Source: Thermoanaerobaculia bacterium (GTDB lineage Bacteria; Acidobacteriota; Thermoanaerobaculia; Multivoradales; Multivoraceae). Taken from it: 35,120 nt of DNA. A program made the translations under genes and the position numbers. This document shows, piece after piece, positions 8,470 to 30,450 of the stretch (the stretch's first letter is position 1; every line of letters begins with the position of its first letter). The stretch is taken from the NCBI GenBank assembly GCA_022824725.1, contig JAJDZH010000388.1, positions 1-35,120 on the forward strand, written 5' to 3'. The notes under the pieces are model-generated. The model was not told the origin of the DNA and did not search any database. It saw only the letters and a program-made list of their open reading frames with translations.

Positions 8470-8481
8470 CGCGGCCCTGCC

Positions 8482-8599
8482 GGGTGCGCGGGTCCTCTGA
8501 CCCGCTTCCGCTGGGTGCGCGGGTCTTCTGACCCGCTTCCGCTGGGTGCGCGGGTCCTCTGACCCGCTTCCGGCTGGGTGCGCGGGTCTTCTGACCCGC
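8482..8599 (+). repeat. tandem array of four palindromic repeats
   Basis: Four 24-bp units at 8482-8505, 8513-8536, 8544-8567 and 8576-8599. Each has the six-base lead GGGTGC followed by arms GCGGGTC and GACCCGC around a 4-nt loop (CTCT in units 1 and 3, TTCT in 2 and 4). Unit spacing is 31, 31 and 32 bp with a linker close to TTCCGCT. The array lies between the convergent livK and cytochrome c/copper monooxygenase genes, where the hairpins could stop transcription from both sides, though no T-tract follows. The same unit occurs at six further places in the window. Confidence 0.95.
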
Positions 8600-12527: not shown

Positions 12528-14891
12528 ATGAGACGAATCCTGTTCATGGCCCTGCTCGTGGCGCTGGCCGCCGCGGGCCTGAGCGCCCAGGACACCGCGA
12601 CGGAAGACGCGCAGGCCGAGGCGGAGTCGCCGGTCGGCACCGTGATCGAGGAGGTCGTCGTCACCGCCCAGAAGCGTGAACAGGGCATCAACGACGTCGG
12701 CATCACGGTGAACGCCTTCTCGGCCGAGCAACTCGAGAACTACGGCGTCGACAACGCGGAGGAACTGGAGAAGCTGGTGCCGGGGCTCACCGTGACCAAC
12801 TCCCAGCCCTCGGGCGCGCCGGTCTACACGATCCGCGGCGTCGGCTTCAACGACTTCTCGACCTCGTCGTCGAGCACGGTCGGCATCTACAACGACGGCG
12901 TCTCCATCCTCTATCCGGTGATGAGTCGTGGCGCGCTCTTCGACATCGACCGGATCGAGGTGCTGAAGGGTCCCCAGGGCGACCTCTACGGCCGGAACAC
13001 GACGGCGGGCCAGATCAACATGATCACGAACCAGCCGACGGCGGCGACCGAGGCCGGCGTCAAGCTGGGCTACGGCACCTACGAGACCGTCGACCTCGAG
13101 GCGTTCGCCGGCGGCTCCCTGGGCGACCGGGCCCGGGCGCGGGTCGCGGTCAGGTCGACGCAGTCCGGCGAGGGCTGGCAGAAGAGCATCACCCGCCCCG
13201 GCGACGAGCTCGGCGAGCGCGACGAGCTGGGCGCCCGCGCCCTCTTCGACTTCGACCTGAGCGACAGCGCCGTGCTGCGGCTCAACGTCCACAACTACCA
13301 GAACAGGTCGGACAACATCGCGGGGACGCCGACCAGCATCTTCGGCGAGAGTGTGGCGGCGGATTACGGCAACGAGGACGCCGACTGGACACCTCACCAC
13401 CGGCCCACGAACGACGCCGTGATTCAGGGCGCCTCGGCCACCCTTTCGGCCAACGCGGGCAACGTCAGCATCACCAGCATCACGGCCTTCGACAAGTTCG
13501 AGCGGGATGCGCTGTACGACACGTCGGCGGTGCCGGAGTCCGACGCCGACATCACGAACGACTCGGAGATCGACGTCTTCTCGCAGGAGCTGCGGCTCGA
13601 GTCGACGACGGACGGCGGCACCTACTGGACCGCGGGCGTCTTCTATTCCGAGGACGAGATCACGGAGAGCTACGAGATGGACTTCACGGCGTTCCAGGGT
13701 CTCCACTTCGACAACCGCTACGTCCAGGAGAGCGATTCGCTCGCGGCCTTCGGGCACGTCGAGGTGCCGCTCGCCGACCGGTTCCAGCTCACGCTGGGGG
13801 CGCGCTTCACCGAGGAGGAGCGGAGTTTCCGGGGCTGCACCTACGACACGGGCGACGGCCTGATCGCCGGCTTCTACAACTTCTTCGTCACGCCGTTCTT
13901 CTTCAACCCGCTGGGCTTCAACCCATCGCCGCTGGCGCCGGGCGACTGCGGCGTGTTCAACGACCTCGCGGGCACGCCGGCCTACGGGCAGTTCGCCGTG
14001 TTCGACGACTCGATCAGCACGGACGACCTCATGACCAAGGTCTCGCTGAACTACAGCCCGAACGACGACGTGCTCCTCTACGGGACGATCTCGAGCGGCT
14101 TCAAGTCGGGCGGCTTCAACGGCGCCGGCGCCCTGACCCACTCCCAGTTGCAGCCCTACGACAAGGAGGAGCTGACCTCCTACGAACTGGGCCTCAAGTC
14201 GACGTTGCTGGGAAGCGCGCTGCAGCTCAACGCCGCCGCGTTCATGTACGACTACACGGACAAGCAGGAGCTGTTCAACTTCATCTCGCCCGTCGGCGAC
14301 GTCGTCGGCATCAACAACGTGCCCGAGTCCGAGGTCTTCGGCATCGAGATCGAGTCCGCGTGGTACCTCGCGACGGGCCTGCGCTGGGATCTGGGCATCG
14401 CCTACCTCGACAGCGAGATCCTCGAGTTCATCGGCAACTGCCCGGCCGGGCTGTTCTTCCCGCCGCCGCCCGAGTCGCTGCCGGCGGGCTGCCCGGCGCC
14501 GAGTTCCTTCGGCAACGTGCTGACCTTCGACGCCTCGGGCAACCGGCTCGACAACGCGCCGGAGTGGCAGATCGCGAGCACGCTGAGCTACACCTGGTCC
14601 GTCGGCAGCAGCCACTTCATGAACCTGGCCGCGGACGTGAGCTACAAGGACGACAACGAGGGCAGCGGCGCGGCGCCGACGGCTCTCAGCCTGTTCTACA
14701 TCCCGGACTACACGATCATGAACCTGAGGATCGGCTTCGGCGACGTGCTCGGCCGCTGGGACGTGGAGGTCTGGGGCCGCAACGTGACGGACGAGGAGTA
14801 CTGGCACTCCACCTCGTCCAGCAACAGCACGACGATCCGGCTGAACGGCATGCCGGCGACCTATGGCGTTTCCGTCGGTTACAAGTTCTAG
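12528..14891 (+). CDS. TonB-dependent outer-membrane receptor
   Basis: A 787-aa outer-membrane active-transport receptor from ATG 12528, with AGGGAG 10 bases upstream. The signal peptide is cut near LSA20-Q. The TonB box region EEVVVTAQKR lies at 41-50, followed by the plug domain (QLENYGVDNAEELEKLVPGL; DIDRIEVLKGPQGDLYGRNT) and a 22-strand-type barrel rich in aromatic and acidic strands. It ends in the outer-membrane signature GVSVGYKF with terminal Phe. It is the type used for unusual organic substrates as well as siderophores; no Fe-S, haem or iron-regulation gene is nearby. The surrounding peptidase and amidohydrolases suggest uptake of an organic amide or peptide. Confidence 0.94.
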   Translation: MRRILFMALLVALAAAGLSAQDTATEDAQAEAESPVGTVIEEVVVTAQKREQGINDVGITVNAFSAEQLENYGVDNAEELEKLVPGLTVTNSQPSGAPVYTIRGVGFNDFSTSSSSTVGIYNDGVSILYPVMSRGALFDIDRIEVLKGPQGDLYGRNTTAGQINMITNQPTAATEAGVKLGYGTYETVDLEAFAGGSLGDRARARVAVRSTQSGEGWQKSITRPGDELGERDELGARALFDFDLSDSAVLRLNVHNYQNRSDNIAGTPTSIFGESVAADYGNEDADWTPHHRPTNDAVIQGASATLSANAGNVSITSITAFDKFERDALYDTSAVPESDADITNDSEIDVFSQELRLESTTDGGTYWTAGVFYSEDEITESYEMDFTAFQGLHFDNRYVQESDSLAAFGHVEVPLADRFQLTLGARFTEEERSFRGCTYDTGDGLIAGFYNFFVTPFFFNPLGFNPSPLAPGDCGVFNDLAGTPAYGQFAVFDDSISTDDLMTKVSLNYSPNDDVLLYGTISSGFKSGGFNGAGALTHSQLQPYDKEELTSYELGLKSTLLGSALQLNAAAFMYDYTDKQELFNFISPVGDVVGINNVPESEVFGIEIESAWYLATGLRWDLGIAYLDSEILEFIGNCPAGLFFPPPPESLPAGCPAPSSFGNVLTFDASGNRLDNAPEWQIASTLSYTWSVGSSHFMNLAADVSYKDDNEGSGAAPTALSLFYIPDYTIMNLRIGFGDVLGRWDVEVWGRNVTDEEYWHSTSSSNSTTIRLNGMPATYGVSVGYKF

Positions 14892-14899
14892 GCGGCACT

Positions 14900-14923
14900 G
14901 GGTGCGCGGGTCTTCTGACCCGC
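14900..14923 (+). repeat. palindromic repeat at the 5' end of the first amidohydrolase gene
   Basis: A full 24-bp unit with TTCT loop, nine bases after the TonB receptor stop. It contains an in-frame GTG (14902-14904) that can start the next gene and would encode (M)RGSSDP immediately before a lipoprotein signal sequence. Confidence 0.95.
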
Positions 14924-16611
14924 TCCTGCTGCTGATCGCCCTGGCCCTCGCCTGCGCTCCCTCGGGCGACGGCGACGCCGACCTGATCCTCACCAACGGC
15001 CGCGTCTACACGCTCGACGCCGCCCGGCCCTGGGCGGAGGCGGTCGCGATCGCCGGCGGCGAGTTCACGTTCGTCGGCTCGACCGCCGACGCGCTCGCGC
15101 ACCGCGGCCCGGACACCGAAGTCCGCGATCTCGAAGGCCGGATGGCGATGCCGGGCATCTACGACGTCCACGTCCATCCGGTGCTGGGCGGGACCGAGGT
15201 GCTGCTCCAGTGCCTGTTCCCGCCCACCGCCGGGCCGGCGGAGATCGAGGAGACGCTGTCCGCCTGCGTCGCCGCCGATCCGGACGCGGCCTGGATCGAG
15301 GGCGGACGCTGGACGAGCAACTTCTTCGTCGACCACGAGATCGGCTCGCCGCGCGAGTGGCTGGACCGGTTCTCGGGCGGCGTGGCGATCAGCCTCGCGG
15401 ACGACACGGGCCACAACCGTTGGGTGAACAGCAAAGCGCTGGAGCTGGCCGGCATCGACGGCGCCACCGACGTCGAAGGCGGCGAGGTCGTGCTGGACGA
15501 GCAGACCGGCGAGCCGAACGGCCTGCTGCTCGAGGCGGCGATGTACCCGGTGTTCCAGGCGATCCCCGAGAAGACGGCGGAGCAGTTCCTGCGCGCCGCC
15601 CGCGAGTCGATCCGGACGGCGAACGGCTTCGGCATCGTCGGCCTCAAGGAAGCGGGCGACGAGGGCACGGGCGTCGCCGCCTACAAGGCGCTGGCGGACG
15701 AAGGCGCGCTCACCGTCCACATGGCCGCGTCGATCGCGATTCCGCTGGTCCCCGGCACGCTCGACCTGGACGTCGACGCCCTGGCGCGGCTGCGCGAGGA
15801 GAACCGGGCCGCCAACCTGGACGTCGACCACGTGAAGATCTTCCTCGACGGCGTGCCGTCCATCGCGCGGACGGCGGCGATGCTCGACGACTACGAGCCG
15901 GAAGTGCCGGGCGGCCCGAGCCACAACGGCGAACTGCTGGTGCCGCCGGAAGCGCTGAACGCCTGGCTGCAGCAGCTCGACGCGCTCGGCGTCACGGTGA
16001 ACATCCACACCGCGGGCGACCGGTCGGTCCGGGTCGCGCTCGATGCGATCGAGTACGCGCGTGAGGAGAACGGCGACTCCGGGCTGATGCACCAGCTCGC
16101 CCATACCGGTTTCGTCGCGGTCGAAGACGTGCCGCGCTTCGCCGAGCTCGGCGCCATCGCCGACATGTCGCCGGCGATCTGGTACCCGTCGTTGATCTCC
16201 GACTCCATCCGCGCCGCCATCGGCGACCGCGCGGACCGCTCCTGGCCGGTGCGGGAGCTGCTCGAAGCCGGCGCCCACGTCATCGTCGGCTCGGACTGGC
16301 CCGCCGTGATCCCGGACATGAACCCCTGGCCCGGCATGGAGGCGCTGGTCACCCGCGCCGACCCCTGGGGCGGGTACCCCGGCACGCTGGCGCCGGAGCA
16401 GGCCGTGACCCTGGAAGAGGCGATCGAGCTCTACACGCTGGCCGGTGCACGCCTGCTGGGCGTCGAGCCGCGGGCCGGAACGATCGCCGCCGGCAAGTCC
16501 GCCGACCTGATCGTCCTCGACCGCAACCTCTTCGAGGTGCCGATCGAGGACGTCAGCGACACGACCGTCGAGTTGACCCTCTACGCAGGAGAGATCGTCC
16601 ATGAGAAGTAG
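14902..16611 (+). CDS. Amidohydro_3 (YtcJ-like) amidohydrolase lipoprotein
   Basis: Metal-dependent hydrolase of C-N bonds, 569 aa from GTG 14902. An ATG at 14863, inside the TonB receptor gene, is an alternative start. Both precede the lipoprotein signal LLLLIALALAC (C18 counted from the GTG). Likely metal and catalytic residues are H90 and H92 (DVHVHP), K312 (VKIFLDG, possibly carboxylated), H369 (IHTAGD), H401 (QLAHTG) and D465 (GSDWP). The Amidohydro_3 family includes N-substituted formamide deformylase and N-acyl-D-amino-acid deacylases; the substrate here is unknown. The next gene is a paralogue of the same fold. The proposed start codon lies inside the palindromic repeat, and no good Shine-Dalgarno is present. 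Confidence 0.9.
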   Translation: MRGSSDPLLLLIALALACAPSGDGDADLILTNGRVYTLDAARPWAEAVAIAGGEFTFVGSTADALAHRGPDTEVRDLEGRMAMPGIYDVHVHPVLGGTEVLLQCLFPPTAGPAEIEETLSACVAADPDAAWIEGGRWTSNFFVDHEIGSPREWLDRFSGGVAISLADDTGHNRWVNSKALELAGIDGATDVEGGEVVLDEQTGEPNGLLLEAAMYPVFQAIPEKTAEQFLRAARESIRTANGFGIVGLKEAGDEGTGVAAYKALADEGALTVHMAASIAIPLVPGTLDLDVDALARLREENRAANLDVDHVKIFLDGVPSIARTAAMLDDYEPEVPGGPSHNGELLVPPEALNAWLQQLDALGVTVNIHTAGDRSVRVALDAIEYAREENGDSGLMHQLAHTGFVAVEDVPRFAELGAIADMSPAIWYPSLISDSIRAAIGDRADRSWPVRELLEAGAHVIVGSDWPAVIPDMNPWPGMEALVTRADPWGGYPGTLAPEQAVTLEEAIELYTLAGARLLGVEPRAGTIAAGKSADLIVLDRNLFEVPIEDVSDTTVELTLYAGEIVHEK

Positions 16612-16631
16612 GAGTCCTCGCCGCGAGAATC

Positions 16632-16721
16632 GTCGCCGACCTTCGGCCGGCGGCCCTGTTGTCCGGGCTGCGCCGCTTCGCGGCTCCGCCCGTAGGCGGG
16701 TCAGAAGACCCGCGCACCCAG
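16632..16721 (-). repeat. repeat unit in reverse orientation with adjoining hairpin modules
   Basis: A perfect 24-bp unit on the minus strand at 16696-16719. To its left are small palindromes of the kind found inside the 18653-18786 element: an imperfect one around CCTTCGGCCGG (about 16637-16652), GCCGC-TTC-GCGGC at 16672-16684, and CCGCC-CGTA-GGCGG at 16686-16699. No matching left-hand end is seen, so this looks like half of a composite element. It lies in the 217-bp gap between the two amidohydrolase genes. Confidence 0.8.
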
Positions 16722-16826
16722 AGAGCCATCTCGCCGGGAGCGCGCTTCTGTTCTGCAACCGTCATGGCGTCACTGCGATCGATGCGCTTACAGCAGACAC
16801 TCTCCTTCCGGCCAAGCGCGTGCTCT

Positions 16827-16850
16827 GGGTGCGCGGGTCTTCCGACCCGC
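16827..16850 (+). repeat. palindromic repeat at the 5' end of the second amidohydrolase gene
   Basis: A 24-bp unit with loop TTCC in place of TTCT. Its internal GTG (16829-16831) is in frame with the amidohydrolase that follows. Hairpin modules continue to the right (GCCGCC-GAA-GGCGGC at about 16852-16866). Between 16722 and 16826 no other feature was seen. Confidence 0.93.
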
Positions 16851-18631
16851 TGCCGCCGAAGGCGGCCGGAAACGCGCGTCGGCCGTCAGGCCGACTCCGT
16901 CTTGCCGCGCACATCCTCAGCCTGACCCTCGTCGCGATCGTCTCCCAACCCGCTCTAGCCCAGTTCCAGGCCGGCGAACCGGCGCCGTCGCGCAACGATC
17001 CCGCCGACACGATCCTCGACGGCGGCCAGGTCTACACGCCCGGCGGCTGGGCGGAGTCGATCGCGATCCGCGACGGCGTCATCGTCGCGGTCGGCGACAG
17101 CGCCTCCGTCGCCGCGTTCCGCACCGGCTCAACGGACGTGATCGACCTGGCGGGCCGGACCGTCTTCCCCGGCTTCCACGATGTCCACGTGCATCCGCTG
17201 ATCGCGGGCATGCAGAGGTTCTCCTGCCGCCTGCCTCCGGGGGCGCCGCCGGACATCATCGCGGAGTCGGTCGGCGACTGCGCCTCCCGGGCCGAGCCGG
17301 GAGAGTGGATCAACGGCGGCAACTGGGTGGCGGCGGTGTTCGAGCCTGGCCAGCAGACCAGGCAGTTCCTGGACGCGGTGGCGCCGGACAACCCGGTCTT
17401 CCTGTACGACGAGTCCCACCACAGCGTCTGGGTCAACACGAAGGCCCTGGAAGTCGCCGGCATCGACCGCGACACGCCGGATCCGGAGGGCGGCATCATC
17501 GAGCGCGGCCCGGACGGCAAGCCGAACGGCCTGCTGCGCGAGACGGCCAACGCCATGGTGGCGTCCGTGATCCCTCCCGCCTCGGACGCGCGGAAGATGG
17601 AGGGCATGAAGATCGCGACCGACGAGATGCTGGCCCACGGCATCACCTCGTTCACGGTCGCCTACGCGAACTCCTGGCAGCTCGGCGCGCTGGCCCGACT
17701 GGCGCGCGAGGGAACGTTGAAGCAGCGGGTGCGGGCCTGCGTCGCCTGGGCGCACGACCCGGCGCTGGCCTACGCCGCCGAGTCCCAGCTCGCGATCCGG
17801 GCGACCTACGAGAGCGAGCGCCTGAAGGTCGACTGCGTGAAGATCATGCTGGACGGGGTGCCGACGGAGAGCCACACCGCGTCGATGCTCGCGCCCTACG
17901 AGGACACGACCGGCGAGGACGATCCGCGGCCGAAGCTCGGGCTGCTCCTGGTTCCGCAGGAAGCGCTGAACGATGCCGTGACGGCCTTCGACCGCCAGGG
18001 TCTGCACGTGAAGATGCACGCCGCCGGCGACGGCGCGGTGCGGGCCGCGATCGACGCGGTCGCGGCCGCCCGGGAACGGAACGGCTTCGGCGGCCCGATG
18101 CACGATGTCGCCCACAGCACCTTCGCCGACCCGGCCGACATTCCCAGGCCGCGCGAGCTCGGCATGGCCTGGGAGTTCTCGCCCTACATCTGGTTCCCCA
18201 CGCCGATGGCCGCGATCGACATCCGCAAGGCGGTCGGCGACGAGCGGATGAAGCGCTGGGTGCCGATCCGGGACGCCCTCGAAACCGGCGCCCTGGTCGC
18301 GGCCGGCTCGGACTGGCCGGTCGTGCCCCTGGTCGACCCGTGGCTCGCGGTCGAGACGATGGTGACCCGCCAGGTCCCCGGCGGCAGCGAGGAAACCCTC
18401 GGCCTGCAGGAGCAGGTGACGCTGGAGGACGCGCTGCGCATCCTGACCTGGAACGGTGCCCGCCTGATGGGCCAGGGCGACAAGGTCGGCACGATCGAGG
18501 TCGGCAAGGAGGCGGACCTCGTCGTCACGTCGCAGAACCCGTTCGACGTCGAGCCGACGGCGGTCCACCGGACGAAGGTGGAAATGACGTTCATCGCCGG
18601 TGAGAGGGTGTACGCGGCCGGTGGCAACTAG
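16829..18631 (+). CDS. Amidohydro_3 (YtcJ-like) amidohydrolase, exported, second paralogue
   Basis: 600 aa if started at GTG 16829 within the repeat; the frame is open back to 16601, but that part reads through repeat DNA and shows no domain. A hydrophobic segment HILSLTLVAIVSQPALA acts as a Sec signal after an unusually long basic n-region. Key motifs parallel the preceding gene: DVHVHP (H120, H122), CVKIMLDGVP, KMHAAGD, DVAHSTF and GSDWPV, with the C-terminal GTIEVGKEADLVV of amidohydrolases. The two proteins align over their whole length (for example WVNTKALEVAGID against WVNSKALELAGID), so they are tandem duplicates that have diverged. Substrate unknown; a periplasmic amidase or deacylase role fits the peptidase and receptor neighbours. 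Confidence 0.9.
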   Translation: MRGSSDPLPPKAAGNARRPSGRLRLAAHILSLTLVAIVSQPALAQFQAGEPAPSRNDPADTILDGGQVYTPGGWAESIAIRDGVIVAVGDSASVAAFRTGSTDVIDLAGRTVFPGFHDVHVHPLIAGMQRFSCRLPPGAPPDIIAESVGDCASRAEPGEWINGGNWVAAVFEPGQQTRQFLDAVAPDNPVFLYDESHHSVWVNTKALEVAGIDRDTPDPEGGIIERGPDGKPNGLLRETANAMVASVIPPASDARKMEGMKIATDEMLAHGITSFTVAYANSWQLGALARLAREGTLKQRVRACVAWAHDPALAYAAESQLAIRATYESERLKVDCVKIMLDGVPTESHTASMLAPYEDTTGEDDPRPKLGLLLVPQEALNDAVTAFDRQGLHVKMHAAGDGAVRAAIDAVAAARERNGFGGPMHDVAHSTFADPADIPRPRELGMAWEFSPYIWFPTPMAAIDIRKAVGDERMKRWVPIRDALETGALVAAGSDWPVVPLVDPWLAVETMVTRQVPGGSEETLGLQEQVTLEDALRILTWNGARLMGQGDKVGTIEVGKEADLVVTSQNPFDVEPTAVHRTKVEMTFIAGERVYAAGGN

Positions 18632-18652: not shown

Positions 18653-18786
18653 CTGGGTGCGCGGGTCTTCTGACCCGCCCGCCGGTCCTGGCGCCGCGGA
18701 GCGGCGCAGGCCGGGGAGACTGTCGGCCTTCGGCCGGCGCTTTGTCCGCCTCCGGCGGAAGCGGGTCAGAAGACCCGCGCACCCAG
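18653..18786. mobile_element. MITE-like composite element with 26-bp terminal inverted repeats
   Basis: Perfect 26-bp inverted repeats at 18653-18678 and 18761-18786 (CTG plus the repeat unit; the right copy is the exact reverse complement) enclose 82 bp. Inside are three more perfect hairpins with 3-nt loops: GCGCCGC-GGA-GCGGCGC (18691-18707), CGGCC-TTC-GGCCG (18724-18736) and TCCGCC-TCC-GGCGGA (18745-18759). With the two ends this makes five hairpins in 134 bp. No transposase and no clear target-site duplication are visible. The element covers the 5' end of the fusion gene. Confidence 0.8.
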
Positions 18787-21548
18787 TGGGAAGCGTCCTG
18801 CTTCTGTTCCTTGCCGTTCCCACGGTGGCCGCCGAACCGGACGCGCGCGCCCTGTACCGCCTCCACTGCGGCGGCTGCCACGGGCAGGCGCTCGAGGGCG
18901 GACTCGCGGAGCCGCTGATCAAGTCGGACTGGCGCTTCGGCCGGGACGGTTTCTCGGTCGAGAGCAACATCCGCCACGGCATCCCGGGCACGGACATGCC
19001 GGGCTACCTCGGCGAGCTCTCGGACGAGGAAATGTCGGCCCTGGTCGAGCTGATCTACAGCCTGCAGACGGAGCCGATCTGGATCGCCAGGCCGCTGCCG
19101 TCCGCGGTGGAGACCGAGCACTACACCCTGCGGGTCGAGTACCTGGCCACCGACGAACTGGAGAACCCCTGGGGCATCGAGTTCACCGGGCCGTCGGAGG
19201 GGCTGATCTCGGAGGACGCGGGCTACCTGCTGCGGTACCGGGACGGCAGGGTCGACCCGGAGCGGATCACCGGACTGCCGCCGGTCGACCTCGCGACCTC
19301 GACCGGCGGGCTGATGGACATCGCGCTCGACCCGGAGTACGCGGAGAACGGATGGGTCTACGCGGCGATCAGCCACTCGGAGGACCCGAACGACCGCTAC
19401 GCACCGGGGCTGACCCGGATCATCCGCGGCCGCGTCGACGGCAACCGCTGGCTGGACACGGAGTACCTGTTCCGGCTCGATCCCGGGTACCACCTGCCCG
19501 ACAGCAAACACTGGGGCGGCCGCCTGCTCTTCGACCGCGACGGCTTCCTGTACTTCTCGATCGGCGACATGAGCGCGGCGATGAACTCGCAGGACGCCGC
19601 CATGCCCTCGGGCAAGGTCTTCCGTATCCGCCCGGACGGCGGCGTCCCGGAGGACAACCCCTTTGCCGGCGAGGACGGAGCGCTCGGCGCGGTATTCACC
19701 CTCGGCAACCGGAACGTCCAGGGCATGGCCCAGCACCCGGAGACCGGCGCGATCTGGGCCGCCGAGCACGGCCCGCGCGGCGGCGACGAGCTGAACCTCC
19801 TCGCTCCGGGCGGGAACTACGGCTGGCCGGTCGTCACGTTCGGCGTCAACTACGACGGCTCGGTGATCAGCGACCGGAAGCACGCCGACGGCATCGTGCC
19901 GCCCGTCGTCGAGTGGACGCCGGGGCTCGCCGTCGGCCCGATCGAGTTCGTGTCGAGCCCCGGCTTCGAGCAGTGGCGGGGCGATCTGCTGGTGGGGTCG
20001 CTCTCGTTCGAGGAACTCCGCCGCCTGGAGATCGACGGCGGCCGCGTCACCCGCCAGGAGCTTCTGTTCAAGGGCCACGGCCGCATCCGCGACATCAAGA
20101 CCGGCCCGGACGGCGCGCTCTACCTGCTGCTCAACAACCCCGGCGCGCTCGTCCGGCTCGCCGCTGCCCAGACGACAGCATCAACCAGCGCCACCGCCAT
20201 CGAGCACGCGACCCTCATCCCGATGACCTCGCGCACGCCTTCCGTCCTCGAGGACCACACCCTGGTCATCCGCGACGAACGGATCGCCGACATCTGTCCC
20301 AGCAATCCCGGCTGCACTCCTCCCGGGGCCCAGGTCGTCGACGGCGCCGGCAGGTTCGTCATTCCGGCGCTCGCCGACATGCACAACCACTTCGGCGGCT
20401 TCGCCTGGGACGGCACGGATGCCTCCCGGATCCGGATGCGAGACCAGAACCTGAGGCAGTACGTCATGTTCGGCGTCGCCACGACGAGAGATCCGTCCGG
20501 CGGCCCCCTGATCCTGGAGATGCGCGACGCGATCGAACGCGGCGAGCTGTTCGGGCCGCGGATCTTCGTCTCGTCGCCGCTGATGGACGGCGACCCGCCC
20601 CTCTTCCCGGTGCCGCGGACGTTCACGGATCCCGGGGAGGCAGCGGAGTTCGTTCGCCGGAGCGCGGCGGCGGGGTACGACCTGGCCAAGGTCTACACCG
20701 CGCTCAGCCCGGAGGTGTTCGACGCGGTGATGACCGCCACCGCGGAAGTGGGCCTTACCGTCGCGGCCCACGTGCCGATCCTGGTGCCGCTGGAACACGC
20801 GCTGGAGCGGGGACTGCGCTCGATCGAGCACCTGACCGGCTACGACGTCGCCTGCGCGGCGCCGCACGTCAGGATGAAGCCGGTCCCGCAGGACATCTAC
20901 CAGGGCTGGGCGTGGTGCTCGCCGGAGAAGGTGGCCGAGCTGGCGGCGCTCACCGCGAGGTACGAGGTCTGGAACGTGCCGACCCTTGCCTTGTGGGACA
21001 GCACGGTGACCGAGTTCGACCGGCCGGAACGCGACGCGGGCGAGATCGGCAGGTACGAACACCCGACGACGCCCGGCGGCATCGAGTGGCTCTACAACCT
21101 CTACGGTCCGCGGGAACGGGCGGGGATCACCGGGACGCGCTCGGCGCGGCTCGGCCTGGTCAAGGCGCTCCACGACGCGGGGGCGCCCCTTCTCATCGGC
21201 ACCGACGTGTCGGCCGCCGGCTACACCGTCCACCGGGAGATGGGCCTGTTCGTCGAGGCCGGTCTCACGCCGTACCAGACGCTGGAGGCCGCGACCTCGG
21301 AGGCGGCCCGCTACATGGACCGGGAAGGCGAGTTCGGCGTGCTTGCCGTGGGCGCGCGCGGCGACGTGCTGCTCCTCGACGCGCACCCGCTCGACGACAT
21401 CGCCAACACGCGTAGGATTCGCGGCCTGATGTTCCGCGACAGGTGGTGGTCGAAGCAGGCGATCGACGCCGAGCTGGAAGCGATCCAGCGCGAGTATGCG
21501 GAAGACGAGGCGCGCCTGCGGGAACTGGGGATCGGACCCGCCCAATGA
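18657..21548 (+). CDS. cytochrome c - PQQ sugar dehydrogenase - amidohydrolase fusion protein
   Basis: 963 aa from GTG 18657 in the repeat; GTG 18600 and GTG 18786 are alternatives, none with a good Shine-Dalgarno. A Sec-type segment GSVLLLFLAVPTVAA is followed by three domains. (1) Cytochrome c, with CGGCH at 71-75 and a likely Met ligand in GTDMPGY. (2) A soluble glucose/sorbosone dehydrogenase-type PQQ propeller, about 130-500: NPWGIEF, the active-site-like H285 in SKHWGGRLLFD, FTLGNRNVQGMA, AAEHGPRGGDELN, GGNYGWP. (3) An imidazolonepropionase-like amidohydrolase, about 505-950, with complete ligands H576, H578 (DMHNHF), K678, H705, H725 and D850 (IGTDVS). Probably periplasmic. The next gene overlaps the stop by four bases. 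Domain calls are firm; the joint reaction is unknown. Confidence 0.9.
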   Translation: MRGSSDPPAGPGAAERRRPGRLSAFGRRFVRLRRKRVRRPAHPVGSVLLLFLAVPTVAAEPDARALYRLHCGGCHGQALEGGLAEPLIKSDWRFGRDGFSVESNIRHGIPGTDMPGYLGELSDEEMSALVELIYSLQTEPIWIARPLPSAVETEHYTLRVEYLATDELENPWGIEFTGPSEGLISEDAGYLLRYRDGRVDPERITGLPPVDLATSTGGLMDIALDPEYAENGWVYAAISHSEDPNDRYAPGLTRIIRGRVDGNRWLDTEYLFRLDPGYHLPDSKHWGGRLLFDRDGFLYFSIGDMSAAMNSQDAAMPSGKVFRIRPDGGVPEDNPFAGEDGALGAVFTLGNRNVQGMAQHPETGAIWAAEHGPRGGDELNLLAPGGNYGWPVVTFGVNYDGSVISDRKHADGIVPPVVEWTPGLAVGPIEFVSSPGFEQWRGDLLVGSLSFEELRRLEIDGGRVTRQELLFKGHGRIRDIKTGPDGALYLLLNNPGALVRLAAAQTTASTSATAIEHATLIPMTSRTPSVLEDHTLVIRDERIADICPSNPGCTPPGAQVVDGAGRFVIPALADMHNHFGGFAWDGTDASRIRMRDQNLRQYVMFGVATTRDPSGGPLILEMRDAIERGELFGPRIFVSSPLMDGDPPLFPVPRTFTDPGEAAEFVRRSAAAGYDLAKVYTALSPEVFDAVMTATAEVGLTVAAHVPILVPLEHALERGLRSIEHLTGYDVACAAPHVRMKPVPQDIYQGWAWCSPEKVAELAALTARYEVWNVPTLALWDSTVTEFDRPERDAGEIGRYEHPTTPGGIEWLYNLYGPRERAGITGTRSARLGLVKALHDAGAPLLIGTDVSAAGYTVHREMGLFVEAGLTPYQTLEAATSEAARYMDREGEFGVLAVGARGDVLLLDAHPLDDIANTRRIRGLMFRDRWWSKQAIDAELEAIQREYAEDEARLRELGIGPAQ

Positions 21549-23005
21549 GCGCCGGTACGCCCGAATCGCCAGGTCAGGGGACTCTGCGCTCCGGCGCGCT
21601 CGGCCTCTGGGGCATCGTGTTCCTGGTCGTCGGCTCGGCGGCGCCGCTGACCTCGATGATGGGCGCGGTGCCGCCGCCGCTGTCGATCGGCAACGGCATC
21701 GGCGCGCCCGGCGCCTGGGTGCTGACCGGTCTCGTGCTGACCCTGTTCGCCGTCGGCTACGCGACGATGAGCCGGTTCGTAACGAACGCCGGCGCCTTCT
21801 ACGCCTACATCGCGCGCGGCCTGGGGCGGCCGGCGGGCCTGGGCGGCGCGATGGTCGCGGTCCTCTCGTACAACACGATCCAGTGCGCGCTGTGGGGGCT
21901 GTTCGGCTTCTTCTCCGTGAACATCCTGAACCCGAAGCTGGGCGTCGACATCTCCTGGTACTGGTGGTCCTTCGTGCTGATGGCGATCACCGCGGTGCTC
22001 GGCTACTTCGGGATCGAGCTCTCGGCCAGGGTTCTGGGCGTGCTGCTGATCCTCGAGGTCCTGGTCCTCCTGGTGCTCGACGTCGCCGTCGTGTTCACCG
22101 GCGGCGCAAGCGGCCTCCAGCTCAACTCCTTCAACCCGGCCGAGATCTTCTCGGGAGCGCCGGGGGTGACCTTCGTTTTCGCCTTCGCCACCTTCGTCGG
22201 CTTCGAGGCGACCGCGATCTACGGGGAGGAGACCCGGGATCCGAAGCGCACCGTGCCACGGGCGACGTACGTCGCGGTGGCGATCATCACCGTCTTCTAC
22301 GCGCTGACCTCCTGGTCGATCGTCCAGGCCTACGGCGAGGACGAGGTCGTCGCCGCGGCGACCGGGAACCCGGACGGGCTGTTCCTGGACGCGAGCGCGA
22401 GCTACGTCCATCCGCTGTCGGCGAGCCTGATGGAGTGGCTGATCCTCACCTCGATCTTCGCGGCCTTGCTCGCCTTCCACAACGCGGCCGCGCGCTACTT
22501 CTTCGCGATGGCCCGCGAGGGACTGCTGCCGCGCGCGATCGCCCGCACCCACCCGCGCTACGGCTCGCCGTACCTCGCCGGCATCCTGCAGGCCGGGGTC
22601 GCCTTCGTCATCACGCTGGTGTTCGTGCTTGCGGGCCTCGATCCCTACGCCGGCCTGTTCGCCTGGCTGAGCGGCATCGCGGCGCTGGGGATCATCGGCC
22701 TGCAGTGCCTGACCTCGCTCTCCGTCATCGCGTTCTTCCGGCGGACGGGCCTGGACGCGCGGCCGTGGCAGACGAAGATGGCGCCGGGCCTGGGCGCGCT
22801 CGGTCTGGCGGCGGCGATGGTGTTCGTCGTCGTCAACTGGGACGCGCTGACCGGGGCGAGCACCGGCCTGGTCGGCTCGCTGTGGGCCGCTGTGCCCTTG
22901 TTCTTCGTGTGCGGCATCGCTTGGGCCGGCGCCATCCGCCGGCGCGACGCCGAGGCCTACGAACGCCTGGGCCATTTCATCGACGAATCAACGGACGCGG
23001 CCTAG
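21545..23005 (+). CDS. APC-superfamily amino acid/amine permease
   Basis: Inner-membrane secondary transporter, 486 aa from ATG 21545 (ATGA overlap with the previous stop). About 12 hydrophobic helices are present. Family motifs include GIVFLVVGSAAPLTSMMGAVP in helix 1, AGAFYAYIARGLGRPAG in helix 2-3, and the helix 6-7 signature FATFVGFEATAIYGEETRDPKRTVPRA. Members move amino acids, polyamines or other amines with H+ or Na+. The placement directly before a glutamine-synthetase-like ligase recalls PuuP-PuuA and points to amine uptake for gamma-glutamylation. The short cytoplasmic C-terminus ends in ERLGHFIDESTDAA. Confidence 0.93.
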   Translation: MSAGTPESPGQGTLRSGALGLWGIVFLVVGSAAPLTSMMGAVPPPLSIGNGIGAPGAWVLTGLVLTLFAVGYATMSRFVTNAGAFYAYIARGLGRPAGLGGAMVAVLSYNTIQCALWGLFGFFSVNILNPKLGVDISWYWWSFVLMAITAVLGYFGIELSARVLGVLLILEVLVLLVLDVAVVFTGGASGLQLNSFNPAEIFSGAPGVTFVFAFATFVGFEATAIYGEETRDPKRTVPRATYVAVAIITVFYALTSWSIVQAYGEDEVVAAATGNPDGLFLDASASYVHPLSASLMEWLILTSIFAALLAFHNAAARYFFAMAREGLLPRAIARTHPRYGSPYLAGILQAGVAFVITLVFVLAGLDPYAGLFAWLSGIAALGIIGLQCLTSLSVIAFFRRTGLDARPWQTKMAPGLGALGLAAAMVFVVVNWDALTGASTGLVGSLWAAVPLFFVCGIAWAGAIRRRDAEAYERLGHFIDESTDAA

Positions 23006-23033
23006 GGAGCCGTGACGTCAACAGGGGTCGAAC

Positions 23034-24350
23034 ATGAGCGACATCGAACGGCTGACGGAGCAGGGCGCCAGGACGCTGCGAGTGATGTACCCCGATCTCC
23101 ACGGCATCGCCCGCGGCAAGGACCTGGTGCTTGCCGACGCCGGCCACGAGATCGAGGGCGGCGTCGCCTTCTGCTCGGCGATCATGACGACGGACCTCGC
23201 GCATACGCCGGTGATGGGCGGCGAGATCGGCTACCCGGACTTCTTCGCCCGGCCCGACCTCTCGACCGCCGCGGTGCTGCCCTGGGCGCCGGACATCGCG
23301 GCCTGCCTGGTCGACCTGGTCGACGAGGAGGGCAATCCCCATCCGTTCGACCCGCGCGGCGCGGTGCGGCGGGCCGCGGACGGTCTGGCGGAACTCGGCC
23401 TGGCGCCGATCGTAGGCCCTGAGCTCGAGTTCTTCCTGTTCAAGCCGGACGACGACGCGCCGGAAGGCGCCGTCCGCTACGTCGACACGCTGTCGCGGGT
23501 CTACACCGTCGGCGCCGAGAGCGATCCGGGCGGCATCTCGGGCCGGATGCTCCACGCCTGCGCCGGGATGGGCCTGGGCGCCTACGCCGCGAACCACGAG
23601 TTCATGAACTCGCAGTACGAGATCAACCTGCGCCACGGCCCCGCCCTGGACGCGGCCGACCGGGCCTTTCGCCTCAAGGCGACGGTCAAGGAGATGGCGG
23701 TGCTGGAGGAGATGCGGGCCACCTTCATGGGCCGGCCCTTCAACGACCAGGGCGGCTCGGGGCTTCACCTCCACGTGTCGCTTCGGGACGGCGACGGCGC
23801 CAACCGGATCGGCGATCCGGCGGGTCCGGACGGCCTGAGCGCCGCCGCGCTCTCCTTCATCGCCGGCGTGCTGGAGCACGCCGGGGCGCTGATGGCGTTT
23901 CTCAATCCGACGGTCAACGCGTTCAAGCGGATCGCGCCCGACTCGCTGGCGCCGATCAACGTGTCCTGGGGGCTGGACAACCGGACGACCTTCGTCCGCG
24001 TGCCGCCCGAGCGCGGCAAGGCCGCCCGCCTGGAGATCCGCGTTGGCGACGGCACGGCGAACTGCCACCTGGCGATCGCCGCCCTGCTTCAGGCCGGCCT
24101 CGACGGCGTGCGCCGGCAGCTCGAAGCGCCCGAGCCGACCGCGGGCGACGCCTACCGGCGGGAGGATCTTCCGCCGTTGCCGAGTTCCCTCGACCAGGCC
24201 CTCGACGCGCTGGAGGCCGACGAACTGCTGTGCGACGGCGTCGGCCGCGAGATCGTCGACGCGTTTCTGACCCTCAAGCGCTTCGAACTCGAGCGTTACC
24301 ACGGTTGGGTGACCGACTGGGAGCGCAACGAGTACCGGATTCAGTTGTAG
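23034..24350 (+). CDS. glutamine synthetase-like gamma-glutamyl-amine ligase
   Basis: 438 aa from ATG 23034. The GS fold shows GPELEFFLF (first metal Glu pair), NHEFMNSQYEINL (H188, E189; HHE in true GlnA), GGSGLHLHVSL, PTVNAFKRI, WGLDNRTTFVRVP and ARLEIRVGDGTANCHLAIAALLQAG. The length and NHEF variant fit the GlnA-like/PuuA group (gamma-glutamylputrescine synthetase, IpuC, aniline TdnQ/AtdA1) rather than housekeeping GlnA. These enzymes join glutamate to a primary amine using ATP. An APC permease lies upstream and a class-I gamma-glutamyl hydrolase two genes downstream, both expected partners. The amine is not known. Confidence 0.9.
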   Translation: MSDIERLTEQGARTLRVMYPDLHGIARGKDLVLADAGHEIEGGVAFCSAIMTTDLAHTPVMGGEIGYPDFFARPDLSTAAVLPWAPDIAACLVDLVDEEGNPHPFDPRGAVRRAADGLAELGLAPIVGPELEFFLFKPDDDAPEGAVRYVDTLSRVYTVGAESDPGGISGRMLHACAGMGLGAYAANHEFMNSQYEINLRHGPALDAADRAFRLKATVKEMAVLEEMRATFMGRPFNDQGGSGLHLHVSLRDGDGANRIGDPAGPDGLSAAALSFIAGVLEHAGALMAFLNPTVNAFKRIAPDSLAPINVSWGLDNRTTFVRVPPERGKAARLEIRVGDGTANCHLAIAALLQAGLDGVRRQLEAPEPTAGDAYRREDLPPLPSSLDQALDALEADELLCDGVGREIVDAFLTLKRFELERYHGWVTDWERNEYRIQL

Positions 24351-24364
24351 GAGTCGGCGGGCCC

Positions 24365-25615
24365 GTGGCGCACGCAGCCAACCTCCCTGCCGTGGCCGGG
24401 ATCGACCTCTGCGATCACGACCGGTTCGCCCGGGGCGTGCCGCACGAGTGGTTCGCGCGGCTGCGGGCGGAGGCGCCGGTGTACTGGCAACCCGAGCCGA
24501 AGGGGCCGGGCTTCTGGTCGATCACGCGGCACGAGGACGTCGTCCGCGTCTCGAAGGATCCGAAGCGGTTCTCGTCCGAGGTCGGCGGCACGTCGCTCGA
24601 GGACCTGGATCCGGAGCACGTCGAGGCACGGAAGTCGATGATCGACATGGATCCGCCGCGCCACTACAAGCTGCGCGCCCTGATCAACAAGCGCTTCCTG
24701 CCGCGGGCGCTGAAGGCCTTCTCGGACCACATCCGGCAACTGTTCCGGGGCATCCTCGAGTCGGCGATCGCCCGGGGCGACTTCGACTTCGTCGACGACG
24801 TGGCGGTCGAGCTGCCGATGCGGGTGTTCGCCGAGATGCTGGGCGCGCCCCAGGAGGACCGGCGCCTCATCGTCGACATCGGCAACCGGATCCTCGGCGC
24901 GACCGACCCGGAGTACGTCGACGACTACGAGACGGAGCGCGAGCGCTTCAAGCACCTGCCGTTCTCGAGCCCGGCCAGCCTGGAGATGTTCGAGTACGGG
25001 CGCAAGCTGGCGGCCGCGCGGCGAGCCGAACCGCGCGACGACATCGTGACCGACCTGGTGTTCGCGGAGGTCGACGGCGAGCCGCTCACGCCGCACGAGT
25101 TCGACCTGTACTTCCTGCTGCTGGCGGCGGCCGGCAACGAGACGACCCGCCACTCGCTGTCGGGCGGCATGCACGAGCTGCTGCGCCACCCCGACCAAGC
25201 GGAGCGCGTCGTCGCCGGCGACGAGGATCTGGCGACCACGGCCGCCGACGAGATCCTGCGGATGGTGACGGCGGTGCACCACTTCCGGCGCACGGCGACA
25301 GAGGACGTCGAGATGCGCGGCGAGGTCATCCGCGCCGGCGACAAGGTCGCGATGTGGTACACGAGCGCCAACCGGGACGAGGACGTGTTCGAGGACCCCC
25401 ACCGTTTCGATGTCGGCCGCAAGCCGAATCGGCACCTGACCTTCGGCATCGGGCCGCACTTCTGCCTCGGCGCGTACCTGGCGAGGCTCGAGATCAGGAT
25501 CGCGCTGGAAGAGCTCCGGCCCCATCTCGGCCGGCTCGAACTCGTCTCCGAGCCGGAGCGGTTGCGCTCGAACTTCTTCAACGGCATCAAGCACATGGGG
25601 GTTCGCTACCGGTGA
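24365..25615 (+). CDS. cytochrome P450 (first of two)
   Basis: Soluble haem monooxygenase, 416 aa from GTG 24365, 14 bases after the ligase gene; the frame is open further upstream, but this start gives the usual bacterial N-terminus. The I-helix has AGNETT (A256-T261), the K-helix ExxR lies in DEILRMVTAVHHFRR, and the haem loop FGIGPHFCLG has axial C367. The AGNETTR and RSNFFNGIKHM features are shared with CYP124/125/142-type bacterial P450s acting on sterols, terpenes or acids. No ferredoxin or reductase gene is nearby. In this operon it may oxidise the gamma-glutamylated amine or hydroxylate the ring (inference). It overlaps the next gene by GTGA. Confidence 0.94.
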   Translation: MAHAANLPAVAGIDLCDHDRFARGVPHEWFARLRAEAPVYWQPEPKGPGFWSITRHEDVVRVSKDPKRFSSEVGGTSLEDLDPEHVEARKSMIDMDPPRHYKLRALINKRFLPRALKAFSDHIRQLFRGILESAIARGDFDFVDDVAVELPMRVFAEMLGAPQEDRRLIVDIGNRILGATDPEYVDDYETERERFKHLPFSSPASLEMFEYGRKLAAARRAEPRDDIVTDLVFAEVDGEPLTPHEFDLYFLLLAAAGNETTRHSLSGGMHELLRHPDQAERVVAGDEDLATTAADEILRMVTAVHHFRRTATEDVEMRGEVIRAGDKVAMWYTSANRDEDVFEDPHRFDVGRKPNRHLTFGIGPHFCLGAYLARLEIRIALEELRPHLGRLELVSEPERLRSNFFNGIKHMGVRYR

Positions 25616-26397
25616 GCGGAGGCGCTGCGGACAACTCGGGGCGCGGGCACAGGCCGCGGATCGGCATCGTCGGCGACGTCCGGGACGCGATCATCGGTCC
25701 GTGGGACGAGGTCGTCTCGATGGTCCCGCACGACTACGTGTCGGCGATTGCCGCCGCCGGCGGCGCGCCGGTCATCATCCCCAGCGTCGAGCCGTACGAC
25801 GAGGCCCCGGAGGCGGCGCTCGCGGGTCTCGACGGCATCGTCTTCATGGGCGGCAAGGACTTCGATGCGAAGATCTATGGCGCGGAGCCGCACCCGGAGA
25901 ACGACGAGCACGACGAGATGCGCGACCGCGTCGAGCTGGCGATCGGCCGCGCCGCGCTCGAACGCCGGATGCCGATCCTGGGGATCTGCCGGGGCTTCCA
26001 GCTCCTGAACCTCCTCTACGGCGGCGACCTGGAACAGCACCTCGGCGACCGGCTCGACATGAAGCCGCACCGCGACGTGCTGGGCGAGTTCACGCGGCAC
26101 ATGGTGACGATCGAGCCGGGGACGCACCTGGCGGCGGCGATGGAGGCGGGCGGGCCGCTCGCGCAGGAGGGTGACGTCGAGATCGCATCGCACCATCACC
26201 AGGGCGCCGGCCGGCTGGGGGAGGGCCTGCGGGTGGCCGCCACCGCGCCGGACGGCGTGATCGAGGCGCTCGAGGATCCCCGGCTCCCGTTCTGTCTCGG
26301 CGTGCAGTGGCACCCGGAGGTGACCGCGCCGGAGGACGGCGGCCGGCTCTTCCGCGCCCTCGTCGACTTCTGCTCATCCCATCCATCAACGGCCTGA
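25612..26397 (+). CDS. class-I glutamine amidotransferase-like gamma-glutamyl hydrolase (peptidase C26, PuuD-like)
   Basis: 261 aa from GTG 25612, overlapping the P450 stop. The nucleophile C126 lies in GICRGFQLLN and the His/Glu pair H234/E236 in GVQWHPE, so the triad is complete. The FMGGKDFDAKIYG segment matches the GG(x)D(x)(x)P(x)(x)Y region of gamma-glutamyl-GABA hydrolases, with Lys after GG instead of Gly. Expected reaction: hydrolysis of a gamma-glutamyl amide to release glutamate and the processed amine or acid. With the GS-like ligase it forms a glutamylation and deglutamylation pair, as in Puu or aniline (TdnQ/TdnT) pathways. Confidence 0.92.
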   Translation: MSGGAADNSGRGHRPRIGIVGDVRDAIIGPWDEVVSMVPHDYVSAIAAAGGAPVIIPSVEPYDEAPEAALAGLDGIVFMGGKDFDAKIYGAEPHPENDEHDEMRDRVELAIGRAALERRMPILGICRGFQLLNLLYGGDLEQHLGDRLDMKPHRDVLGEFTRHMVTIEPGTHLAAAMEAGGPLAQEGDVEIASHHHQGAGRLGEGLRVAATAPDGVIEALEDPRLPFCLGVQWHPEVTAPEDGGRLFRALVDFCSSHPSTA

Positions 26398-26410
26398 GGG
26401 TTCAACGCAC

Positions 26411-27214
26411 ATGCCACTCAAGGGCTACAGCGGCCCGCTCTCCGCCAGCGGACGCGGCGGCCTCGTGCCGGCGCCGCCCTGGCACTACTCCTGCGACTTC
26501 CTGATCGTCGAGTACAGCACCGATCCGGACGCCATCACGGCCCTGCTGCCGGCGGAGCTCGAACCGGCCGAGCGACCGGACATGGCCTGCGTCATCTTCG
26601 CCGACTGGCAGTCCTGCTCCGACGACCTGCACGAGCTGGAGGACCCGATCCAGTCCCAGTACAAGGAGTGCTTCGTCGTCGTCGGCGCGACGTGGCGCGG
26701 CGAACCGGTGTCGCGCTGCGTCTACATCTGGGTCGACAAGGACTTCGCGATGTTCCGCGGCTGGGTGCAGGGCTTCCCGAAGAAGCTCGGCTCGATCCAC
26801 ATGACCCGCAGCTTCGAGGTCGGCAAGGCGGCGTGCAGGCTCGCTCCCGGCACCCGCTTCGGAGCGACCTGCACCGCGAACGACCGGCAGATCGTCCGTG
26901 CCGTCGTCGAACTCGAGGGGATCAGCGAAACCGGACCGACGGTGAACGCTCCGCCCATGTTCAACACGCGCCACTTCCCCGCCGCGGCCGGGCTCGAACC
27001 CACGGTGTTCGAGATGGTCCGGGCCGGCGGCTACGACCGGGACTCGACCGATGTCTGGGAGGGGCCGGCCAGGCTCGCGTTCGGCGGCGACACGCTGGAG
27101 GACCTGCAGGCGATCGCGCCGCGCGAGGTGCACCGCGGCTTCCGGTTCTCCTTCGCTTACAGCGTCGACGGCGTGGAAGTCGTCGGCCCGCACGACCGGG
27201 AGCAACTGCGATGA
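26411..27214 (+). CDS. acetoacetate decarboxylase-family protein
   Basis: 267 aa from ATG 26411, 13 bases after the hydrolase gene. The ADC-family core is seen in APPWHYSCDFLIVEY near the N-terminus, WVDKDFAMFRGWVQGFPKKLGSI in the middle and FSFAYSVDGVEVV near the end. The adjacent lysines K124-K125 in GFPKK match the Schiff-base pair of acetoacetate decarboxylase. ADC-like proteins include decarboxylases and aldolase- or cyclase-like enzymes, so the reaction is open. In this operon a decarboxylation or C-C cleavage of an oxo-acid after ring opening is plausible (inference). The stop overlaps the next start (ATGA). Confidence 0.88.
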   Translation: MPLKGYSGPLSASGRGGLVPAPPWHYSCDFLIVEYSTDPDAITALLPAELEPAERPDMACVIFADWQSCSDDLHELEDPIQSQYKECFVVVGATWRGEPVSRCVYIWVDKDFAMFRGWVQGFPKKLGSIHMTRSFEVGKAACRLAPGTRFGATCTANDRQIVRAVVELEGISETGPTVNAPPMFNTRHFPAAAGLEPTVFEMVRAGGYDRDSTDVWEGPARLAFGGDTLEDLQAIAPREVHRGFRFSFAYSVDGVEVVGPHDREQLR

Positions 27215-28002
27215 AACACGAGCGCCGCGCCGGCGACGGCACCTGGCTGCCTCCTATCGATCCGCCGTCGAAGATCATCGGCGTCCACCTGAGTTACCGC
27301 TCGCGTTGCGTGGAGTACGAGATGGAGCGCATCCCGGAGGTGCCGTCCTACTTCATGAAGCCGACTTCCTCGCTGAGCGCTCACGAGGCGCCCGTGGCGC
27401 GGCCGCGCGGCTGCCGCTTCCTGAACTACGAGGGGGAGATCGCGGTCGTCATCGGCCGGCGGGCGACCGGCGTGCCGATCGACGAGGCGCTCGACTACGT
27501 GCGCGGCTACACGCTGGTCAACGACTTCGGCATCCATGACTTCCGGCACGCCGACCGCGGCTCGATGCTGCGGGTCAAGGGCCAGGACGGCTTCGGGCCG
27601 ATGGGACCGGCGCTGGTCGATGCCGGCGACGTCGACCCGAACGACCTGACGCTGCGCACCCTGGTCAACGGCGAGGTGGTGCAGGAGGGGAACACCGGGG
27701 AGGACCTCCTGTTCTCGTTCGCCTACCAGGTCGCCGACCTGAGCCGGCTGATCACGCTCGAACCCGGCGACGTCATCATGTCCGGCACGCCGGCGAACTC
27801 GCGGCCGGTCGAGCCCGGCGACGTGGTCGAGGTGCATTGCGACGAGATCGGCACGCTGCGCAACCCGATCGTCGAGCTGGACCGGGACCTGCAGCCGCTC
27901 GGCGAGCAGCCCGAGGTGACCGGCAACACGCTGCATGTCGCGCTCTGCGTGCCCGAGGACGAGGCCGAGGTGATGGCGGCGGCGGAGGCGGCGGGTTCGT
28001 GA
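27211..28002 (+). CDS. fumarylacetoacetate hydrolase-family protein (HpaG/hydratase-decarboxylase type)
   Basis: 263 aa from ATG 27211. The FAH-fold metal site is seen in NYEGEIAVVIG (E74, E76) and GYTLVNDFG (D105), with the substrate loop SYFMKPTSSLS and SGTPANSRPVEPGDVVEV near the end. Family members isomerise, decarboxylate or hydrate products of aromatic meta-cleavage, for example 2-oxo-hept-3-ene-1,7-dioate. The protein is somewhat longer at both ends than the 200-aa core. Its place next to an aldehyde dehydrogenase and an extradiol dioxygenase supports a meta-cleavage role. It overlaps both neighbours by four bases. Confidence 0.91.
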   Translation: MKHERRAGDGTWLPPIDPPSKIIGVHLSYRSRCVEYEMERIPEVPSYFMKPTSSLSAHEAPVARPRGCRFLNYEGEIAVVIGRRATGVPIDEALDYVRGYTLVNDFGIHDFRHADRGSMLRVKGQDGFGPMGPALVDAGDVDPNDLTLRTLVNGEVVQEGNTGEDLLFSFAYQVADLSRLITLEPGDVIMSGTPANSRPVEPGDVVEVHCDEIGTLRNPIVELDRDLQPLGEQPEVTGNTLHVALCVPEDEAEVMAAAEAAGS

Positions 28003-29495: not shown

Positions 29496-30409
29496 TCGGC
29501 GGCATCCACCACGCAGGCCTCACCGTCACCGACCTCGCCGAGGCCTCGGCCCGCTGGCAGCGCCTGCTCGGCCTCAGCCCGGCCACCGATGACGGTGCGC
29601 TGCTGCGCTGCGCCTACGAGGGCTTCTGCGTCCGCCTCTCCCCAGGCGACCGCGGCTGCGTCGACTACATCGCCTACGAGCTCGAACCCGGCGTGACCCT
29701 GGCCCAGGCCGGCGACCGGCTGTCCGACGCCGGGACGCTCGCCGTACCGATCGAACTCCCGTCCGGCCGTTTCGGGCTCCGCACCGCCGACCCGGACGGC
29801 AACGGCGTGGTCGTCGTCGAGCACACAGCACCCGACGACCCGCGGCCAGACGTCTGCAAGCAGTCGGACACCCTGCCGGGGTTTCATCCGCGCCGGCTCC
29901 AGCACGTGAACTACCTCACCGCCGACACCCCGCGCGCCGTCAAGTGGTACGTCGAGGCGCTCGGCCTCAAGATCACCGACTGGATCGGCGACGACGCCTG
30001 CTGGCTCCACGCCGACCGCGACCATCACGTGCTCGCCTTCCTCGACAAGGGCTACGCCCACATCCACCACGTCGCCTTCGAACTGGCCGACTGGGGCGAG
30101 CTGCGGGTCGGCCTCGACCACCTCGCGGCCCACCGGCGGCCGATCGTCTGGGGTCCGGGCCGCCACGGCATGGCCCAGAACCTGTTCGCCTACTGGCGGA
30201 TGCCCGAGGAGGACACCTTCATCGAGTTCTTCGCCGACATGGAAGTCCTCGGCCCGAACCACCAGGTCCGCCACTTCCCCGACGACGCCTTCGCCTCGAA
30301 CACCTGGGGCCAACTGCCCCCGCGGTCCTACTTCCGCTTCGACGAAGAAGCGATCCGCGCCGAGTGGGACCAGTCCCAGCAACTGGGCGCCCCGCTGGAA
30401 CGCGGGTAG
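29492..30409 (+). CDS. type I extradiol ring-cleavage dioxygenase (VOC fold)
   Basis: 305 aa from GTG 29492, with AGGAG nine bases before it and a GTGA overlap with the aldehyde dehydrogenase. Two vicinal-oxygen-chelate domains are visible: residues about 1-115 (GGIHHAGLTVTDLAEA) and about 130-270. The 2-His-1-carboxylate Fe or Mn site is complete: H138 (LQHVNYL), H192 or H193 (HIHHVAFEL) and E245 (FIEFFAD). This fits catechol 2,3-dioxygenase, BphC or homoprotocatechuate 2,3-dioxygenase (HPCD-like). It should cleave a catechol next to the diol, giving a semialdehyde for the upstream enzymes. Last gene of the operon. Confidence 0.91.
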   Translation: MIGGIHHAGLTVTDLAEASARWQRLLGLSPATDDGALLRCAYEGFCVRLSPGDRGCVDYIAYELEPGVTLAQAGDRLSDAGTLAVPIELPSGRFGLRTADPDGNGVVVVEHTAPDDPRPDVCKQSDTLPGFHPRRLQHVNYLTADTPRAVKWYVEALGLKITDWIGDDACWLHADRDHHVLAFLDKGYAHIHHVAFELADWGELRVGLDHLAAHRRPIVWGPGRHGMAQNLFAYWRMPEEDTFIEFFADMEVLGPNHQVRHFPDDAFASNTWGQLPPRSYFRFDEEAIRAEWDQSQQLGAPLERG

Positions 30410-30425
30410 TCGCCGCCGGTCCGCT

Positions 30426-30449
30426 GGGTGCGCGGGTATTCTGACCCGC
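30426..30449 (+). repeat. palindromic repeat between convergent genes
   Basis: A 24-bp unit with one arm mismatch (GCGGGTA-TTCT-GACCCGC), 16 bases after the dioxygenase stop. Hairpin modules follow on the right as in the other copies. Confidence 0.9.
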
Positions 30450-30450
30450 C

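Follow-up and report, generated by a model that had tools for sequence, protein, structure and literature searches.

Soluble aldose sugar dehydrogenases, among them E. coli Asd (2g8s), 7cdy and the Acinetobacter soluble glucose dehydrogenase (sGDH; 1c9u/5min), are propeller enzymes without a fused haem or hydrolase domain. Haem and PQQ dehydrogenase domains are combined within one three-domain enzyme in the Coprinopsis quinohaemoprotein pyranose dehydrogenase, a fungal protein whose cytochrome domain carries haem b, unlike the haem c of the fusion described here (PMC4332668). Two-domain cytochrome c-GSDH proteins, which like this fusion begin with a class I haem c domain and continue with a GSDH/PQQ propeller, are common in Acidobacteriota (37–45% identity), but they end after the propeller, with no amidohydrolase fused to them or encoded within their 1.5-kb flanks. 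COG1228-type amidohydrolases such as 2p9b, 3mtw and 4c5y are, in turn, stand-alone enzymes. We found no description in the literature of a cytochrome c-GSDH-amidohydrolase architecture, and the third domain of the Coprinopsis enzyme is presumably not an amidohydrolase.

The locus investigated here unites these modules. It lies in a window of 35,120 nucleotides (the whole stretch of DNA that was analysed), which is one contig of a 3.7-Mb draft genome comprising 490 contigs. A preliminary description had read positions 18657–21548 (+) as one uninterrupted frame with cytochrome c, PQQ dehydrogenase and amidohydrolase domains. This frame of 963 aa is indeed free of internal stops, and all three domains exceed the curated Pfam cut-offs. 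The class I cytochrome c domain (18840–19049, +; Cytochrome_CBB3, residues 62–131; 35 bits, cut-off 27) contains the haem motif C71-GG-C74-H75 (18867–18881, +) and, in GTDMPGY, the candidate distal ligand M114, both invariant in the orthologues and in two-domain homologues. It is followed by a GSDH/PQQ aldose sugar dehydrogenase propeller (19158–20156, +; Pfam GSDH, residues 168–500; 331 bits, E 8e-99, cut-off 25), in which H285 (19509–19511, +) aligns with H144 of Acinetobacter sGDH (5min alignment) and further motifs are R352-N353, EHGPRGGDE and R476/R478. The PQQ/Ca-binding residues in LGNRNVQG, EHGPRGGDE and RIRD, aligned with solved sugar dehydrogenases, are invariant in the orthologues; the propeller fold, the H144 equivalent and the RN and EHGPRGGDE motifs are common to the soluble aldose sugar dehydrogenases. 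A linker rich in Ala, Thr and Ser (residues 501–513; 20157–20195, +) leads into the COG1228/imidazolonepropionase-like amidohydrolase (20196–21545, +; Pfam Amidohydro_1, residues 567–920; 51 bits, cut-off 25). This domain is distant from 2p9b, 3mtw and 4c5y but shares their fold and aligns with their HxH, H, H and D motifs. Its HxH, K, H, H, D metal site is formed by H576, H578, K678, H705, H725 and D850. All catalytic residues named earlier (CGGCH 71–75, H285 and these six) were present and did not vary among seven fused orthologues, and the two-domain proteins found elsewhere in the phylum bear out the claim that cytochrome c and GSDH form a known pairing.

The start at position 18657, in contrast, could not be upheld. 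This codon falls within a copy of a 26-bp interspersed palindromic repeat (18653–18678, +), and the first ~43 residues of the 963-aa frame have no counterpart except in G000 and G013. An inverted repeat copy (18761–18786, −) ends on the G of a GTG codon at 18786; this codon, immediately after the second copy, is the probable true start in view of the repeat position and the start codons of the orthologues. The gene would then extend from 18786 to 21548 (+) and encode ~920 aa, consisting of signal peptide, cytochrome c, GSDH propeller, linker and amidohydrolase. The predicted signal peptide (MGSVLLLFLAVPTVAA; 18786–18833, +), as read from the sequence, has a weak N-terminal positive charge in the window species. 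The charge is clear in relatives, where the short signal peptide at the start of the gene reads MRTSLLVSVLLAAVPVAAA in G017 and MAQNPNRMPRAARLPAG... in G001; these signal peptides agree with the earlier prediction that the protein is exported. The repeat itself (CTGGGTGCGCGGGTCTTCTGACCCGC) occurs in ten copies in the window, four in tandem and the others single or in inverted pairs (8478–8599, 14898–14923, 16696–16721, 16825–16850, 18653–18678, 18761–18786 and 30424–30450). It lengthens the N-terminal ORFs of several window genes and is scarcer in the syntenic regions of relatives.

Among the 21 species examined in this Thermoanaerobaculia genus (phylum Acidobacteriota; the named relatives are MAGs), the full-length fusion was present in seven (G000, G001, G005, G011, G013, G017 and G018) at 90–96% identity. 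The linker differs in length between species (e.g. ...LVRLTAAETTNVTAIEH vs ...LVRLTAAETVGATSPDDASGVTAIEH), always by whole codons. Median dN/dS was 0.10 in the cytochrome, 0.13 in the GSDH domain, 0.14 in the amidohydrolase and 0.45 in the linker. Purifying selection acts on both halves, and variation is confined to the linker. The three-domain fusion is thereby confirmed as real, and it is maintained by selection.

Other species exhibited different states at the same locus. In G003, G006 and G008 the gene encodes the cytochrome-GSDH part only and stops where the linker begins, ending in ...LVRLTAVGSAAR with a stop codon that overlaps a downstream ATG. These unfused alleles and that of G010 have a common tail (...LTAVGSAAR, then stop). 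G010 has also lost ~28 codons in frame (residues 342–369; L029, around 10604–10628), including the R352-N353 PQQ-site motif, and this deletion makes it unlikely that its cytochrome-GSDH functions as a PQQ enzyme. No other close hydrolase copy was found in these four genomes. The preliminary description had named separate halves, with a stop and a start near position 20150, as evidence that would speak against a fusion; these four relatives stop there, but without a hydrolase, and none of the genomes examined carries both halves as separate genes in fusion order. G020 encodes the amidohydrolase only, behind a signal peptide that matches that of the cytochrome-GSDH gene (63/70 nt to G008). Its breakpoint lies in GGCCGCnGAG, a sequence that flanks the missing part on either side, and the gene looks like an in-frame deletion derived from a fused one. 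Decayed remnants were found in G012 and G016, with an amidohydrolase fragment kept in G012. Because species with one module exist (G003, G006 and G008; G020), the halves are separable and their joint action is not obligatory. Elsewhere in its genome, G001 carries an additional, stand-alone copy of the amidohydrolase (L031, G001:C186, 4361–5746), which has its own signal peptide and adjoins a prolyl-oligopeptidase-type gene. Two candidate signals were rejected. A comparison of the unfused tail (GGATCGGCGGCC) with the fused 3' end as a deletion scar was unconvincing, as stand-alone amidohydrolases have similar ends, and a match (168–678) in a paralogue (G004:C11) that seemed to run from GSDH through a TAG into an amidohydrolase proved false, since the DNA beyond the stop does not encode one.

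Beyond the genus, no match spanning both halves was obtained in 396 Acidobacteriota and 395 Gemmatimonadota genomes, and the three-domain combination is apparently restricted to this one genus. A scan of a species-genome collection used amidohydrolase-derived peptide patterns only, which fusions with a divergent hydrolase could escape; a scan of viral contigs returned two uninformative GSDH fragments. Close stand-alone amidohydrolases (66–74% identity) were found in one Steroidobacter MAG and in two members each of the Gemmatimonadota and Gammaproteobacteria. In the Steroidobacter MAG (MAG-237), the 66%-identical amidohydrolase gene comes first, and its stop codon shares bases with the GTG that starts the following cytochrome c-GSDH gene (GTGA), an order that is the reverse of that in the fusion. 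This second, separate pairing is the main evidence supporting a functional link between the two functions. In the flanking sequence examined of the other Gemmatimonadota and Gammaproteobacteria loci, no GSDH stands beside the hydrolase.

A lactone or an N-acylated sugar had been suggested earlier as the substrate, which the nearest solved amidohydrolases do not favor. These include the possible prolidase 2p9b, 8ihq and its relatives, the arginine carboxypeptidase Cc2672 (3mtw) and ochratoxinase (4c5y); the 8ihq group we take to be the ochratoxin-hydrolysing ADH3. ADH3 hydrolyses an amide bond (PMC9430628). The best NCBIfam amidohydrolase match, Xaa-Pro dipeptidase (NF051886), missed its cut-off (88 vs 500 bits), as did the HutI equivalog TIGR01224 (38 vs 298 bits). 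Judged by these distant relatives, a peptide or N-acyl-amino-acid-like (amide) bond is a likelier target of the hydrolase than a lactone.

Two Amidohydro_3 genes (14863–16611 and 16601–18631, +) lie directly upstream of the fused gene and are collinear in relatives; the upstream region also holds genes for a prolyl-oligopeptidase-type peptidase and, from a reading of its sequence, a TonB-dependent receptor. Downstream, the start of an amino-acid/amine permease gene (21545–23005, +) overlaps the stop of the fused gene (ATGA), followed by glutamine-synthetase-like, P450, peptidase C26, ADC-like, FAA hydrolase, HpaE-like ALDH and HpaD-like dioxygenase genes (23034–30409, +) that are collinear in most relatives. 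The glutamine-synthetase-like gene resembles gamma-glutamyl-amine synthetases. By its gene content, the 21545–30409 set looks like a pathway that degrades aromatic amines through gamma-glutamylation and meta-cleavage, and up- and downstream genes together suggest, as a hypothesis, the catabolism of a conjugated, possibly aromatic amine.

We consider it likely that the gene product is a single bifunctional protein with both halves active, and rather favor, with less assurance, a genuine single exported polypeptide in which all three modules work. That both halves act on one pathway substrate falls slightly short of an even chance; the two catalytic halves may plausibly be coupled in function. 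In such a protein, the signal peptide would direct export to the periplasm, where haem c would be attached. The amidohydrolase, presumably a binuclear metal enzyme of the prolidase or N-acyl-amino-acid-hydrolase type, would split an amide-like bond in a conjugate derived from the host or the community, and the propeller, if loaded with PQQ, would oxidise the released product or a related compound at a hydroxyl, aldose or similar group. Electrons would pass through the tethered haem to respiratory cytochromes. The fusion would contribute tethering, co-export and equal dosage, and no obligatory tunnel is expected, because species with just one half exist. Against this reading of a three-module enzyme stand the one-module species, the decayed remnants in G012 and G016, the absence of PqqC (see below) and the hydrolases that have no GSDH neighbour outside Steroidobacter.

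A serious competitor, to which we nevertheless assign a clearly smaller chance, is co-export without shared chemistry: two independent periplasmic enzymes of one catabolic cluster, acting on different compounds, would have been placed on one signal peptide and one transcript. The persistence of either half alone in some species agrees with this, as do the short, variable and fast-evolving linker and the close packing of the gene, with some overlaps, among genes for other hydrolases and a permease. The adjacency of the 66%-identical amidohydrolase and cytochrome c-GSDH in Steroidobacter, however, suggests that the pairing matters.

The history of the locus bears on a further alternative, a largely neutral fusion in which a chance deletion or insertion joined the genes and the product spread by recombination with little effect. 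On the rpoB tree, fused and unfused states are intermixed and require at least four changes. The amidohydrolase DNA tree separates G000 and G013 from the rest, as do the GSDH half and the flanking genes; the module was therefore at the locus before this split. The near-identity of the unfused tail across this split means that the unfused allele, too, is old or that alleles undergo recombination. The change may thus have been a gain of the fusion or a loss of the amidohydrolase accompanied by allele exchange, with neither direction preferred. The intermixing of alleles, their apparent exchange (one tail in G003, G006, G008 and G010) and the decayed copies speak for a neutral fusion. We nevertheless regard it as improbable, given that the frame has been retained in seven species despite repeated linker indels and that dN/dS is ~0.10–0.14 across all three domains.

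Equally doubtful is the idea that one of the halves has no enzymatic activity and is retained as a scaffold, as would be the case for a PQQ-free apo-GSDH. PqqC was absent from all 21 genus genomes in a model search. The same model yielded copies above its cut-off in 8 of 119 genomes of the phylum, so the search works, and its strong matches in other Acidobacteriota make the absence of PqqC from this genus a point for a dead half. PqqE was uninformative, with just sub-cut-off radical-SAM matches, controls included. GSDH-type proteins are present in nearly all of the 21 genomes despite the missing PqqC. E. coli Asd (2g8s), the nearest solved relative of the propeller by sequence (213 bits), was solved in its apo form. 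In structural comparisons, the partial AlphaFold propeller reached TM-scores of 0.85 and 0.83 (by target length) against 7cdy and 2g8s, respectively; the whole-protein models, with mean pLDDT values of 52.7 and 34.4, are usable for the propeller alone and not for the linker or the domain geometry. What weakens the idea of a dead half is the invariance of the catalytic and PQQ/Ca residues, together with the possibility of external PQQ uptake. A propeller that does use PQQ would probably depend on import of the cofactor by the cell; alternatively, the propeller may be in apo form or have another use.

A sequencing or assembly artefact that joined two genes is highly improbable and excluded in practice, because the assemblies of six other species contain the full-length frame, the linker indels come in whole codons and dN/dS is low in all three domains, even though the window is only one contig of a 490-contig draft.

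The window bacterium is probably sponge-associated, and several of its relatives come from sponges, as inferred from project names. In its most specific form, the three-module reading would make the exported protein a natural hydrolase tethered to a quinohaemoprotein, able to split an amide conjugate and to respire the moiety set free, in symbionts that rely on PQQ from their neighbours, a scenario that we regard as speculative and unlikely in full.

What is new at this locus is the addition of a hydrolase to a known haem-quinoprotein pairing, apparently in a single genus. Within that genus, one locus displays fused, oxidase-only, hydrolase-only and decayed states, which together offer a natural comparison for what a fusion of redox enzyme and hydrolase contributes. 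For the biology of these bacteria, the fusion points to a conjugated substrate in their habitat.
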